Position numbers and translations under genes: made by a program. From a virus: a stretch of 64,000 nucleotides of DNA. Under the pieces are notes generated by a model, which made no database searches, had not been told where the DNA came from, and saw only the letters and a program-made list of their open reading frames with translations. Below are positions 19,678 through 27,560 of the stretch, one piece after another. The stretch lies in the IMG/VR virus record IMGVR_UViG_3300027985_000286, positions 1 to 64,000 of that record; one strand, written 5' to 3'. Each line of letters starts with the position of its first letter. Position 1 is the first letter of the stretch.

Positions 19678-19867
19678 CATCGGTCTAGTGCAGGCAGTAG
19701 CGCTCGTATTCTTTGGGTTGTCTGGTTTCTTTATCCACTACCAGACGTTTCAGATTTCTTTGCGAAACGGAGACAACCCGATTCGTATCACTGGCCTCCA
19801 GCTCGCGCTATACATGACAATTGCGGTAAACGGTTTTGCTGCTTTACTGCATATTGTCATTGGGTAG
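19670..19867 (+). CDS. Small two-helix membrane protein (65 aa)
   Basis: ATG with GAGGATGG upstream. Two hydrophobic segments (about 4-22 and 43-64) separated by a polar loop (RNGDNPIR). Its 3-prime end overlaps the convergent o-spanin gene by 24 bases. Confidence 0.6.
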   Translation: MGDIGLVQAVALVFFGLSGFFIHYQTFQISLRNGDNPIRITGLQLALYMTIAVNGFAALLHIVIG

Positions 19868-20200
19868 GGCACAGATCGGTTCGTTCTGGTCCTTTCGGTA
19901 ATAACAGAGCAGATCCTGTTCCTTTTTGATAAAGGTCAGGATCTGCTCCATCCATGTGGCAAACTTGGCAGCGTCCTGCCTGGTCAGCGCAATGTAAGAA
20001 GTAGGGACCCCTCCTTCGTCAACCACCAACGATTTGAACTGAACAGACGGAGCTTCAACCGGAGCCGGTCTATCTGGGTGCACCATTGGGGTTGGTACAT
20101 ACTCCACTCCCGGTCGAGCAGGAAAATCCCAAAAACAGCCGCTGAGCGTAAGTGTTGACATCAGCACCATCGGCAATAGGATCTTTGATAGCTTGGTCAT
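19844..20200 (-). CDS. o-spanin (Rz1-like outer-membrane lipoprotein)
   Basis: Start placed at the ATG whose product begins MTKLSKILLPMVLMSTLTLSGC: a signal peptide ending in an LSGC lipobox, with the lipid-bearing Cys at about residue 22. The mature part is Pro-rich, as usual for o-spanins. The first 131 bases are nested in another frame inside the i-spanin gene, the classic Rz/Rz1 layout. Acts in fusing inner and outer membranes at lysis. Confidence 0.8.
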   Translation of the reverse strand: MTKLSKILLPMVLMSTLTLSGCFWDFPARPGVEYVPTPMVHPDRPAPVEAPSVQFKSLVVDEGGVPTSYIALTRQDAAKFATWMEQILTFIKKEQDLLCYYRKDQNEPICALPNDNMQ

Positions 20201-20495
20201 TTTTGGCTTCCCAGTCTTTAATAGCTCTTCGAGCAATTGCTAGTTCAATGTCCGTCTTTCTGTTCTGCTTATCCAGCTCGTCCTTGCGTTTTTGCAAGTC
20301 GTCGTAGAGCGCCTGTAGCGCGTTATAACGCGACTCTGCATTTTGCTGTGCTACTACAGCAGCCTGCAGTTCTGTCTGCGCTACGTCGATCCTAGAGCTT
20401 TGCAGCAACAGAAACAGTGCTAACACTACGACCCAGGAAACTGCAGTTGCACTTATCCAAGGGTTCTTTAGAATCTTTAGCAGAAAACCGACCAT
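20070..20495 (-). CDS. i-spanin (Rz-like inner-membrane protein)
   Basis: Start taken at the ATG giving MVGFLLKILKNPW. One N-terminal membrane helix (about 13-32), then a long coiled-coil periplasmic region (about 35-105). The gene overlaps the o-spanin gene. Together they form a two-component spanin for Gram-negative hosts. No endolysin was found in the window. Confidence 0.78.
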   Translation of the reverse strand: MVGFLLKILKNPWISATAVSWVVVLALFLLLQSSRIDVAQTELQAAVVAQQNAESRYNALQALYDDLQKRKDELDKQNRKTDIELAIARRAIKDWEAKNDQAIKDPIADGADVNTYAQRLFLGFSCSTGSGVCTNPNGAPR

Positions 20496-20788
20496 CACAA
20501 GTCCTTCATCTTTAGGTAGATGTGTTGTGTGGTATTGGCAGAGTTGCACAGCACAGTTGGCTTGCCCGAGTAAAGCCTCTTCTTTAGCTCTGCAGTCAAG
20601 TCAACATCGTCTAAAATCTCTTTCCATTTTCTACCACGTTCTTTACCCTGCATCATCTTAAGGTAGGAGTCATGAGGGACATGATATACAGGAGCACCGA
20701 ATGCCATGTCTCTACCTGCAACCGAAGCGCCGGTAACGTTAGTTGCCGGGGCAGAGTCCTCGTTGAGATATTCTTGGAAAGTCTTCAT
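20495..20788 (-). CDS. Putative encapsidated protein with capsid-targeting N-terminus (97 aa)
   Basis: The N-terminus MKTFQEYLNE-D closely resembles the T4 capsid-targeting sequence (MKTYQEFIAE-A) that directs internal proteins into the prohead and is removed by the gp21 protease after Glu. The remainder (87 aa) is soluble and not recognised. Start overlaps the upstream stop (ATGA). The adjacent gene carries a similar N-terminus. Prediction: packaged in the head and injected with DNA. Confidence 0.6.
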   Translation of the reverse strand: MKTFQEYLNEDSAPATNVTGASVAGRDMAFGAPVYHVPHDSYLKMMQGKERGRKWKEILDDVDLTAELKKRLYSGKPTVLCNSANTTQHIYLKMKDL

Positions 20789-20952
20789 CAGATGCTTCCT
20801 TTATTGTGCAGAGCCCAAGCAGTTGCGTAGAGCTTTTCTTCCCAACCTTCTCCATACCTCTTCTTGAACTCTTCCTTGTTCGCCTTTACCCAGTCCTCTG
20901 CTTTCTTACCAGGAGGGGCTGACTCTTTGATATAGTCTTGGAACCTTTTCAT
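20788..20952 (-). CDS. Putative encapsidated small protein with capsid-targeting N-terminus (54 aa)
   Basis: Start MKRFQDYIKE-S again fits a capsid-targeting peptide with a gp21-like cleavage site (I-x-E). The rest is a short helical, charged protein containing KKRYGEGWEEKLYATAWALHNK, seen here in two pieces: KKRYGEGWEEKLY and ATAWALHNK. That YG-x-x-W...LYATAW pattern recurs in small phage proteins. ATGA overlaps on both sides tie it to its neighbours. Confidence 0.6.
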   Translation of the reverse strand: MKRFQDYIKESAPPGKKAEDWVKANKEEFKKRYGEGWEEKLYATAWALHNKGSI

Positions 20953-21338
20953 GCTAGTGCCTCTAACTTGAACCTAAGGTCTACGTCTTCACTATACTCG
21001 CTCATGTTTATCTCAGGTATTGCCTGAGGTAGGACATTAAGAAATCTGAATACAGTCTTCGCCACCGGTATTTGATCACCGGTAAGCCTGAAGAATGCGA
21101 TTCTGACTAATGCCTTACTATCAAACACGTTTAGGAGCATTATGAAGGTGTTCAGCATTATCCTAACGTTAATACCATGGTCCCTGTCATTGAGGAAGGT
21201 ATCAATTGTCCTTCCCAGTCGTAACAGTTTGATGAAGTCAGACTTGAACTCCTCAACACCTAAGCAATGAGGGTTGGTGTAAGAGTCAATGGCGAACTGC
21301 TTTAGGTTGGTATTGTTCAAGAGATGTTGCTTATTCAT
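20949..21338 (-). CDS. Conserved T4-like hypothetical protein, DUF7207-like (129 aa)
   Basis: All-helical protein with a YTNPHCLGVEEFKSD start and a NVRIMLNTFIMLLNVF helix, matching a conserved family of T4-like phages (DUF7207-like) of unknown function. In relatives it also sits among structural and late genes. Overlaps both neighbours slightly. Confidence 0.65.
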   Translation of the reverse strand: MNKQHLLNNTNLKQFAIDSYTNPHCLGVEEFKSDFIKLLRLGRTIDTFLNDRDHGINVRIMLNTFIMLLNVFDSKALVRIAFFRLTGDQIPVAKTVFRFLNVLPQAIPEINMSEYSEDVDLRFKLEALA

Positions 21339-24057: not shown

Positions 24058-24534
24058 TTATCCTCCGAGTGCAATGGCCATGACGATCGCGTACATGATG
24101 GAGTTTTGTTCAATTTGCGGGTGGGCGTTAGGATCATCTCTGTTGATAAGGTTTTGGTGATCCATTACCTCAGTGTTTAGCCATGTGCGATAGTCTTCGA
24201 TTAGGGTAATGACACCGGCAGCAGTCGTGACACGATACAGCGCAATGGCATCAGACGATGGAGTGAACCCCTCTACTGCTGACGCGAGTGCTTCTGCACC
24301 CAACGTAACATCTAGGTACACAACGTTGACGCTGTTATCTGCGAGTGTGACAAAAGTATCAGGAATGTTGACTAGGGCAGTACCACGTCTCAGGTAGCTA
24401 GCTCGAATAAAGAAGTCAAGACCGGTATTGAAGTCTGGGTCGTTAGAAAAGCTACCAACCACACCTGTAGCGATTACCTCATTGTACTTCTCGAACCAAG
24501 TCTTAAAGGTATCACCCTGCTTAAGAGTTCTCAT
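24058..24534 (-). CDS. Probable tail fibre/adaptor structural protein (158 aa)
   Basis: Carries the pattern of tail-appendage adaptor modules: VNVVYLDVTLG, DAIALYRVTTAAGVITLIEDYRTW in two blocks (DAIALYRVTT, ITLIEDYRTW), and a RDDPNAHPQ segment. First gene of a late operon with tailspike 2; a TAAATA promoter lies 25 bases before its start. Confidence 0.65.
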   Translation of the reverse strand: MRTLKQGDTFKTWFEKYNEVIATGVVGSFSNDPDFNTGLDFFIRASYLRRGTALVNIPDTFVTLADNSVNVVYLDVTLGAEALASAVEGFTPSSDAIALYRVTTAAGVITLIEDYRTWLNTEVMDHQNLINRDDPNAHPQIEQNSIMYAIVMAIALGG

Positions 24535-24559: not shown

Positions 24560-24565
24560 TATTTA
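24560..24565 (-). promoter_or_regulatory. Late promoter TAAATA for the tailspike 2 operon
   Basis: Minus strand GCTAAATACAATC, just after a terminator and 25 bases before the 158-aa structural gene. Confidence 0.6.
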
Positions 24566-24574
24566 GCAGAGACA

Positions 24575-24600
24575 AAAAGAAGGCCAGCATTGCTGGCCTA
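24575..24600 (-). terminator. Rho-independent terminator (minus strand)
   Basis: AGGCCAGC, loop AAT, GCTGGCCT, then TCTTTTTG on the minus strand. It separates the dsbA transcript from the tailspike 2 operon. Confidence 0.85.
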
Positions 24601-25696: not shown

Positions 25697-26194
25697 TTAG
25701 GAAGGTTTATAGTTGACAACAGTAATATCTGCGCCTGCTGTGACTTCTTCAATAACTGCGGCGATCTTGTTCCAATCACCACCGGCAATACCAGCCCCAA
25801 TCTTCGGTATACCAATTTTGGGCTTGTTAAAGTTGGCAAAGCGAAGCTTGACATTGTAAAACGCTTCACGCACCCAGCGCAAACGGTTTTCAGGAGTGTC
25901 GTACAGTAGCGAAAAACCACCAGGCTGATACTGCGTGTACGCATTGATAATAGTAAGCTTGTGGCTACCTAAGTCGCAATTGACGAACGACATCTTTCCT
26001 GCCTGATTAATATCGCCTTTATACAGCTTTGCGAAGTTCTTGTCTGCCTTGACCGCCGCCGGGAACTCTTTTGCGATGGTTGCTGCAATGCCTCCACCCA
26101 TCGTGGCAAAGCAGTTGCAACCGTGTACGATGACATCAAAGTCACCGTTTTTTGCCATTGCAATGAGATCACCATCAACATACTTGAGCGCCAT
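25697..26194 (-). CDS. Macro-domain ADP-ribose hydrolase-like protein (165 aa)
   Basis: A single macro domain: GDLIAMAKNGDFDVIVHGCNC, seen here as two parts (GDLIAMA, DVIVHGCNC), then MGGGIAATIAKEFP, NAYTQYQ, and IGIPKIGAGIAGGDW. These are the ADP-ribose-binding elements. Such proteins hydrolyse ADP-ribose-1''-phosphate or remove ADP-ribose from targets. In a phage it could reverse a host ADP-ribosylation defence or recycle tRNA-repair by-products. Confidence 0.88.
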   Translation of the reverse strand: MALKYVDGDLIAMAKNGDFDVIVHGCNCFATMGGGIAATIAKEFPAAVKADKNFAKLYKGDINQAGKMSFVNCDLGSHKLTIINAYTQYQPGGFSLLYDTPENRLRWVREAFYNVKLRFANFNKPKIGIPKIGAGIAGGDWNKIAAVIEEVTAGADITVVNYKPS

Positions 26195-26974: not shown

Positions 26975-27181
26975 TTAGTAATTATAAAGCCTGGAAACTT
27001 CTTTTTCAACACTTGTTGACGTGAACATCTTGTTCATGTCGTTCCATTCAACAAGATCACCTTGAGTGGTACGCGCAACCTTATCGTTCAACCATCGGTC
27101 GATAGTAAAGATCTGAGGGTTCTTACCGGGCCGAGCTACGAGACAAGTAGAACCAGAATCAGGCCGTCCACTATTGGTCAT
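26975..27181 (-). CDS. Hypothetical protein (68 aa)
   Basis: Small soluble protein with no recognised motif. Overlaps the ParB-like gene by 11 bases, so probably coupled. It ends 7 bases before the tRNA. Confidence 0.5.
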   Translation of the reverse strand: MTNSGRPDSGSTCLVARPGKNPQIFTIDRWLNDKVARTTQGDLVEWNDMNKMFTSTSVEKEVSRLYNY

Positions 27182-27560
27182 CTTGTTTGCTCCAAGCTAG
27201 AATTGAGATAACGTCAGCATTTAACCGAACAGCACTAATGGTTTCAGGTGCAGACTTTGAAAGAACAAACGCTGCAGCCCTGTGATTACCGTCAACGATA
27301 TGGTCATCTGAAGACGTGACAATGGGTTTATCAAACTTATTGATTCGGTTAACCTTTTCTAAATCCAAATGATGCTGAACTGTCCTGAGCGACGTAACTT
27401 CACCCTTGGATAAGTCCACCAAGTCGTAGCCAAAGTAATTCTTAGCCTTATCGAGTAGATCATCATCAAACTGCGGCATGTCCGTACGTGACACCAAGGC
27501 AGTCACGTTGTTATTGGCACTTTGCTCGTTAAGAAAAGACCTAAAGCTTTTGAGCTGCAT
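27171..27560 (-). CDS. ParB/sulfiredoxin-like protein with capsid-targeting N-terminus (129 aa)
   Basis: ATG at 27560 behind GGAGAA. N-terminus MQLKSFRSFLNE-Q resembles a T4 capsid-targeting peptide with L-x-E cleavage. The body has a ParB-like core: IVTSSDDHIVDGNHRAAAF, the IVDGxHR motif of ParB/Srx nucleotidases and nucleases. If packaged, it could be an injected nuclease or NTPase acting at once on host DNA or defences. The combination is inferred, not proven. Confidence 0.65.
   Translation of the reverse strand: MQLKSFRSFLNEQSANNNVTALVSRTDMPQFDDDLLDKAKNYFGYDLVDLSKGEVTSLRTVQHHLDLEKVNRINKFDKPIVTSSDDHIVDGNHRAAAFVLSKSAPETISAVRLNADVISILAWSKQDDQ

Follow-up and report, generated by a model that had tools for sequence, protein, structure and literature searches.

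Two neighbouring genes of an uncultured phage encode short proteins whose N-termini resemble the capsid-targeting sequence (CTS) of phage T4, which raises the question of whether their products are cargo packed with the DNA or components of the head itself. The window, i.e. the whole stretch of DNA that was analysed, corresponds to bases 1-64,000 of a 149,348-base record of a virus of bacteria. Among isolates, Pseudomonas phage pf16 has the most similar major capsid protein (gp23, 65% identity over 96%) and, judging from these comparisons, the source phage is T4-like and pf16-related. The two adjacent proteins with T4-like targeting peptides announced in the preliminary description were found at their place. 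The first, p54 (20788..20952, minus strand, 54 residues, starting MKRFQDYIKESAPPGKK), carries the tag MKRFQDYIKE (20923..20952, minus strand), followed by SAPPGKK and a helical FKKRYGxxWExxLYATAW module. In the second, p97 (20495..20788, minus strand, 97 residues, starting MKTFQEYLNEDSAPATNVTGASV), the tag MKTFQEYLNE (20759..20788, minus strand) is followed by DSAPATNVTG, within a segment resembling the N-fist of gp23, and by an alpha/beta domain of about 65 residues.

The capsid-targeting sequence of the T4 internal proteins IPI, IPII and IPIII is known from the work of Mullaney and Black, and the relevant sections of a review (PMC9026906) assign targeting mainly to residues 4 and 7 and processing to residues 8 and 10. 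In the T4 record, ipII and ipIII each begin with MKTYQEFIAE. The ten-residue tags of p54 and p97 match the T4 proteins at all four positions: both have F4 and Y7, of the aromatic type, at the targeting positions, and the L/I-x-E cleavage positions are occupied by I8 and E10 in p54 and by L8 and E10 in p97. Together with an encoded S77 protease and a near-identical predicted cut site in gp23, this argues for a T4-type head-targeting tag with its cleavage site, as had been proposed. The first 30 bases of the two genes are identical at 24 of 30 positions, which is suggestive, not decisive, of a duplication of the leader from p97 to p54.

The entire 149,348-base record was then analysed with the strict pattern M[KRS]x[FYL]x[DEK][YFL][LIVM]xE, applied to ORFs of at least 40 residues. 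Five ORFs matched, namely p54, p97 and three genes in another piece of the record, L019:11310-11498 (MKSFKEFVNE), L019:11987-12271 (MKTLKDYLGE) and L019:15505-15741 (MSKFTKYLSE), and 40 genomes simulated from the record with a first-order Markov model contained no match. The tag is thus recurrent in this genome, of which the preliminary description had listed only the pair in the window. The product of L019:11310-11498 has weak PHROG matches, at E 2e-7 to families named 'virion structural protein' and at E 0.064 to 'internal head protein'. A looser pattern, in which a few extra N-terminal residues were allowed, added two credible genes with 2 to 3 residues ahead of the motif, as well as five ORFs beginning within a longer open frame; these matches are weaker because the looser pattern arises 0.92 times per simulated genome, and the narrower of its two versions 0.2 times. 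One of the two credible genes, at 27171..27560 (minus strand), is the third CTS-like gene of the window and encodes 129 residues starting MQLKSFRSFLNE|QSANN. Its product carries DGNHRAAAF, a motif that we read as ParB-like, and resembles pf16 FDG98_gp195 (note pf16_gp103; MIQSFSQYVARHS...DGHHRY), the gene of which adjoins a helicase gene. The other, L021:15612-16046, encodes a DUF5856 protein (E 9e-11) with the start MKKIKSFETFVNE, CTS-like after three extra residues.

The genome encodes gp20, gp21, gp22 and gp23 in T4 order (L019), with Pfam matches for gp20 (E 6e-154), the gp21-type S77 protease (E 3.2e-43), gp22 (T4_CASP, E 3.2e-25) and gp23 (E 2.7e-131); a small gp67-like acidic ORF was spotted by eye between gp20 and gp21, and the gp23-family gene is single. 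The gp23 of this phage reads ...QIDFLKESAPPVNVTGSAIQNWDPVLIQMVRRA and, by comparison with T4 LTE65|A66, is predicted to be cut after FLKE. This predicted maturation site, DFLKE|SAPPVNVTG, resembles the tags of both p54 and p97. When the cut-site segment IDFLKESAPPVNVTGSAIQNWDPVL was compared with the 969 ORFs of at least 40 residues, gp23 itself scored 132, p54 47, p97 45 and the next ORF 36. Apart from gp23, no ORF thus resembles the maturation site of the phage as closely as p54 and p97; in p97, the matching segment is DSAPATNVTGASVAGRDM (20705..20758, minus strand).

Neither the window nor any of the six pieces of the record contains the canonical T4 late promoter TATAAATA, so the phage's own variant, YTAAATA, was used for the analysis of late expression. 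This motif occurs 24 times in the record, and 17 of the 24 copies are placed 10-56 nt ahead of an ORF start; none of 14 permuted control motifs has more than 7 copies so placed. It stands ahead of gp18, gp22, gp23 and two of the three other strict-tag genes. On the minus strand of the window, a CTAAATA (24560..24566), with a terminator-like hairpin just upstream (24581-24599), lies 25 nt before the gene 24058-24534, which heads a run ending with a DUF7207 gene, p54, p97 and two spanin-like genes. The motif and the adjoining spanin genes bear out the late operon of the preliminary description, and late expression of p54 and p97, both several genes downstream of this promoter-like motif, is supported by the arrangement. 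Adjacent genes of the run share a few bases (ATGA, TGATG), the p54 and p97 ORFs overlapping in TGATG, and translation is therefore probably coupled. The DUF7207 gene (20949..21338, minus strand; phrog_407, T4-GC 198 in cyanophages; Pfam E 3e-19, PHROG E 3.9e-20) has tblastn matches in 413 phage records and served as a synteny anchor. On the other side, an inner-membrane spanin-like (Rz) gene (20070..20549, minus strand; PHROG Rz-like spanin, E 3.3e-4) has an ATG at about 20495 that overlaps the p97 stop, and is followed by an outer-membrane spanin-like (Rz1) gene (19844..20236, minus strand; PHROG Rz-like spanin, E 1.6e-17). A Pfam match of a spanin-like protein to the 'Diphtheria toxin T domain' (E 1.9e-4) was below cut-off, lay in a coiled region and was put down to chance. 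Elsewhere in the window, 25697-26194 (minus strand) encodes a Macro-domain protein (Pfam E 1.4e-6).

By tblastn, none of 50,697 phage records matched p97 at E 0.01, and no viral contig was found with p97 peptide patterns. Its relatives were recognized by position. In pf16, gp46 (NC_041881 17441-17764, 107 residues) occupies the slot between a DUF7207-like gene and the spanins, and can be aligned with p97 end to end (shuffle z 9.5; none of 1,000 shuffles scored as high). Among 1,278 pf16 ORFs compared with the pf16 gp23 cut-site segment, gp46 is the best match after gp23 (43, next 37). It differs from p97 by a longer leader, by the lack of a canonical MKxF...E tag and by having no p54 counterpart alongside. 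The words 'mass spectrometry' do not occur in the text of the pf16 paper. A further relative, in the 145-kb uncultured phage L239, was found only through an alignment of p97 with two uncultured relatives; there the gene order is DUF7207, a tagged p97-like protein (MKTLREYISE) and spanins. In total, p97 is syntenic and alignable with pf16 gp46 and with the proteins of L239, L146 and L164, with a common C-terminal domain and a position fixed by DUF7207. Around the spanins of L239 (101-5789) stand four further CTS-like genes, so that the starts MKTFQQF, MKTAKDFLNE, MKTLREYISE, MKTFKQFTES and MKSFQQFTEA are found together, possibly as an internal-protein island.

The cyanophage gene following DUF7207 is T4-GC0426, which part of the records annotate as 'major head protein' or 'T4-like structural protein' and others, among them that of S-SM1, as 'hypothetical'; the GC426 gene of this phage, SSM1_197, is not named in the sections consulted of the S-SM1 proteomics paper (PMC3037559). 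The T4-GC0426 sequence opens much like the mature N-terminus of gp23. p97 resembles this group (phrog_696; PSSM4_163, P-TIM40 gp190) by its gp23-like N-terminus and by its place next to DUF7207/T4-GC198, except that p54 is inserted between them in the window. Unlike p97, the cyanophage members mostly have no CTS leader, and their C-terminal parts are longer, basic and different. P-SSM4_163 matches phrog_696 at 7e-77, whereas p97 fails this profile and gave only a weak phrog_4805 match (E 0.0083). Although phrog_696 is named 'major head protein', its member L110:3345-3884 has 179 residues, and the family probably owes its name to the N-terminus resembling gp23. In most of the 36 uncultured DUF7207 loci inspected, out of 80 fetched, the slot protein is unrelated. 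In the slot after DUF7207 in L117 (3363-4115), a CTS-like start (MKSFRQYVNE) is fused to an endolysin-like domain (phrog_7, E 3e-14). The AlphaFold model of p97, of modest confidence (mean pLDDT 63.8), shows a helix at 4-10, a disordered stretch at 11-25 corresponding to the copied segment, and a domain at 27-92, for which no confident PDB match was obtained (Foldseek, none below E 0.8). A weak chitosanase match in a PDB sequence search with the p97 alignment (best E 0.015) was read as chance, and a PADLOC match to Cas6d (E 0.034) was dismissed as below cut-off or chance.

The likeness to gp23 is a property of the family. In the relevant parts of two structural papers on T4, gp23 residues 66-91, directly after the cut, form the N-fist (PMC7136217), which touches four subunits, and, as the head expands, the gp23 N-termini shift from its interior to its outer face (PMC9958956). 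Most family members carry a copy of this segment, directly after the protease site in those that have one; in T4, the N-fist is part of the shell subunit, whereas the family's copy lies on a separate small protein. No paper on a separate protein copying the gp23 N-fist was found among the open-library texts covered. The small protein and its own gp23 read, respectively, QTTGYTGADAATGPTAGYDPV and QTTGYTTGDTATGPVAGFDPV in P-SSM4, TNVGPINTPTTGKGAIAGFDPI and TNVGPINTPTTSSGAVAGFDPI in P-HM1 (NVGPINTPTT being present in both), GVNTDGSFDKVAGLDKPL and GANTDGNFSSVAGFDPVL in L146, and DSAPATNVTGASVAGRDM and ESAPPVNVTGSAIQNWDP in the window phage. The members of QB2, S-RIM8 and P-TIM40 are leaderless, starting at the mature N-terminus of gp23 or close to it; in these and in P-HM1, the mature segment has no upstream Glu to cut after. 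The likeness runs as far as DPxL and stops near it. The persistence of the segment in leaderless members suggests that it matters in itself, beyond the protease site.

We then analysed whether each small protein resembles the gp23 of its own phage more than those of others, permutations being drawn in every case with kinship ignored. In a first set of 14 phages, the mean score was 63.6 with the own gp23 and 35.4 with foreign ones, the own gp23 ranked first in 9, and none of 100,000 permutations was as high. In a second set of 11 named cyanophages fetched later, these values were 67.4 and 51.6, with the own gp23 first in 4 of 11 (17 of 100,000 permutations), and for all 26 phages, including L239, they were 64.0 and 40.3, with the own first in 10 (0 of 100,000). 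After dereplication to 17 phages, the means were 60.5 and 34.5 and the own gp23 was first in 10 of 17 (0 of 100,000), so that in 7 it was not the best match. Clear exceptions are L169, L172, L186, P-SSM2 and ACG-2014f and, in the larger set, Bellamy. For p97 the own gp23 ranks first, with only 8 of 18 aligned residues identical. A gp23 was found in 17 of the 24 records searched for it, and those without were excluded from these tests, as were L121 and L141 (a different slot protein), L171 (a duplicate of L169) and L118 (a gp23 fragment); the P-RSM1 ORF, which is unannotated, was picked by script, and for P-SSM2 the immediate DUF7207 neighbour was used, though the next gene appears more mimic-like. 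That next gene (L109:3656-4303, the second after DUF7207) has a CTS-like start, M/VKTFKQFQE|A, and contains a GKIAGTVEAGDDPPV stretch that is shared with Bellamy and L169, is unlike gp23 and may copy another head protein. In 13 pairs chosen for clear alignment, 222 of 311 aligned residues were identical and only 97 of these 222 had the same codon, near the chance level of 0.25-0.5 for most amino acids (higher for N and F). The likeness therefore appears to be old and maintained at the protein level, not the result of fresh DNA copying.

p54 stands apart. Its FKKRYGxxWExxLYATAW module recurs at the end of, or within, other phage proteins, often behind an E-APP stretch, and the protein has no counterpart in the slot of pf16 and L239; it therefore looks like a later arrival. 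AlphaFold gave four helices at modest confidence (mean pLDDT 76.7), no PDB sequence match was obtained, and an NCBIfam match to aureocin A53 (E 0.0036; 16.9 bits against a cut-off of 27) was rejected.

These observations have to be set against several other readings. That p54 and p97 are ordinary small proteins with accidental tags is hardly credible: the motif is short and its looser forms arise about 0.2-0.9 times per simulated genome, but the five strict matches had no equivalent in 40 simulations and the two proteins lead the 969 ORFs in likeness to the gp23 site. A more serious, though unlikely, reading is that both are classical internal proteins, packed unattached alongside the DNA, processed by gp21 and injected into the cell, where they would inhibit restriction or other defences. 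The CTS-tagged internal proteins of T4 have established anti-restriction roles in the passages concerned of PMC3012670, PMC9391042 and PMC12373910, the last of which describes Ip1-Ip3 as inhibitors of GmrSD enzymes with only their leader in common. p54 and p97 are similar to them in their tag, small size, late expression and unrelated mature parts as well as in the presence of a gp21-type protease, and the diverse CTS-like genes around the L239 spanins resemble a cargo hotspot. The preliminary description had gone further and suggested a blocking of host defences. This found no backing, as no PADLOC, Pfam or NCBIfam match above cut-off links p54 or p97 to anti-defence, and no link to anti-restriction was found such as the T4 proteins have. 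Moreover, unlike these, p97 has a mature part whose first segment copies the N-fist of its own gp23, and its family keeps its genomic position and imitates gp23, something for which a free effector would have no need.

The gp23-like segment could also serve only to extend the site that the gp21 protease recognizes, the likeness then reflecting a common cut site and not docking. In the window phage and in pf16 it does sit around the leader's L-x-E-like site, but QB2, S-RIM8, P-TIM40 and P-HM1 have the mature segment with no Glu ahead of it and the likeness reaches DPxL, which makes this explanation improbable. It is very improbable that the family regulates head maturation, for instance as a product mimic inhibiting or timing gp21, instead of being a shell component: an N-terminus without a leader, resembling the cleavage product, could occupy the protease, but the tracking of the N-fist, including parts distant from the cut, better fits binding to the lattice.

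The explanation that we favour, by a little over an even chance, is that p54 and p97 are late proteins targeted to the prohead, that p97 is cut there and docks by its N-fist-like end as a minor head protein, and that p54 is a recent arrival. By analogy with the mapped T4 determinants, the first ten residues would bind the scaffold core and carry each protein into the prohead, where the gp21-type protease would cut after Glu10 as it is predicted to cut gp23. In p97, cutting would expose the segment resembling the mature N-terminus of its own gp23, and on expansion this segment would take an N-fist position in the lattice, fixing the C-terminal domain to the shell. The site could be one where no neighbouring gp23 supplies an N-fist, e.g. 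at or near the vertices or the portal. At the T4 portal vertex, as described in part of PMC7136217, the five N-fists facing the portal lose their partner and become disordered, and vertices would thus be natural sites for extra N-fist-like proteins. The copying of the mature N-terminus of the own gp23, in some members with no cuttable leader, favours such a shell-associated role and suggests that p97 plugs into the shell and is not simply injected cargo; p54 is most likely packaged too. More tentatively, and with slightly less than an even chance, a widespread and so far unrecognized family of small proteins may be at hand, in which the copied own N-fist is kept in step by selection and docks into the expanded capsid, some members entering the prohead with the help of a T4-type tag that can be cut off and others lacking a leader and beginning close to the mature N-terminus.

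Since the CTS residues known from T4 and a gp21-like cut site have matches in this T4-like but distant phage, candidate head cargo can be listed by means of the tag even in phages remote from T4. Should the N-fist interpretation hold, there would be a second route for attaching proteins to a capsid of the T4 type, by means of a copied part of the shell. The same reading would explain the 'major head protein' label on short proteins such as PSSM4_163, would offer a testable anchor for the display or retention of proteins on heads, and would give a testable role to the slot beside a gene present in 413 phage records.
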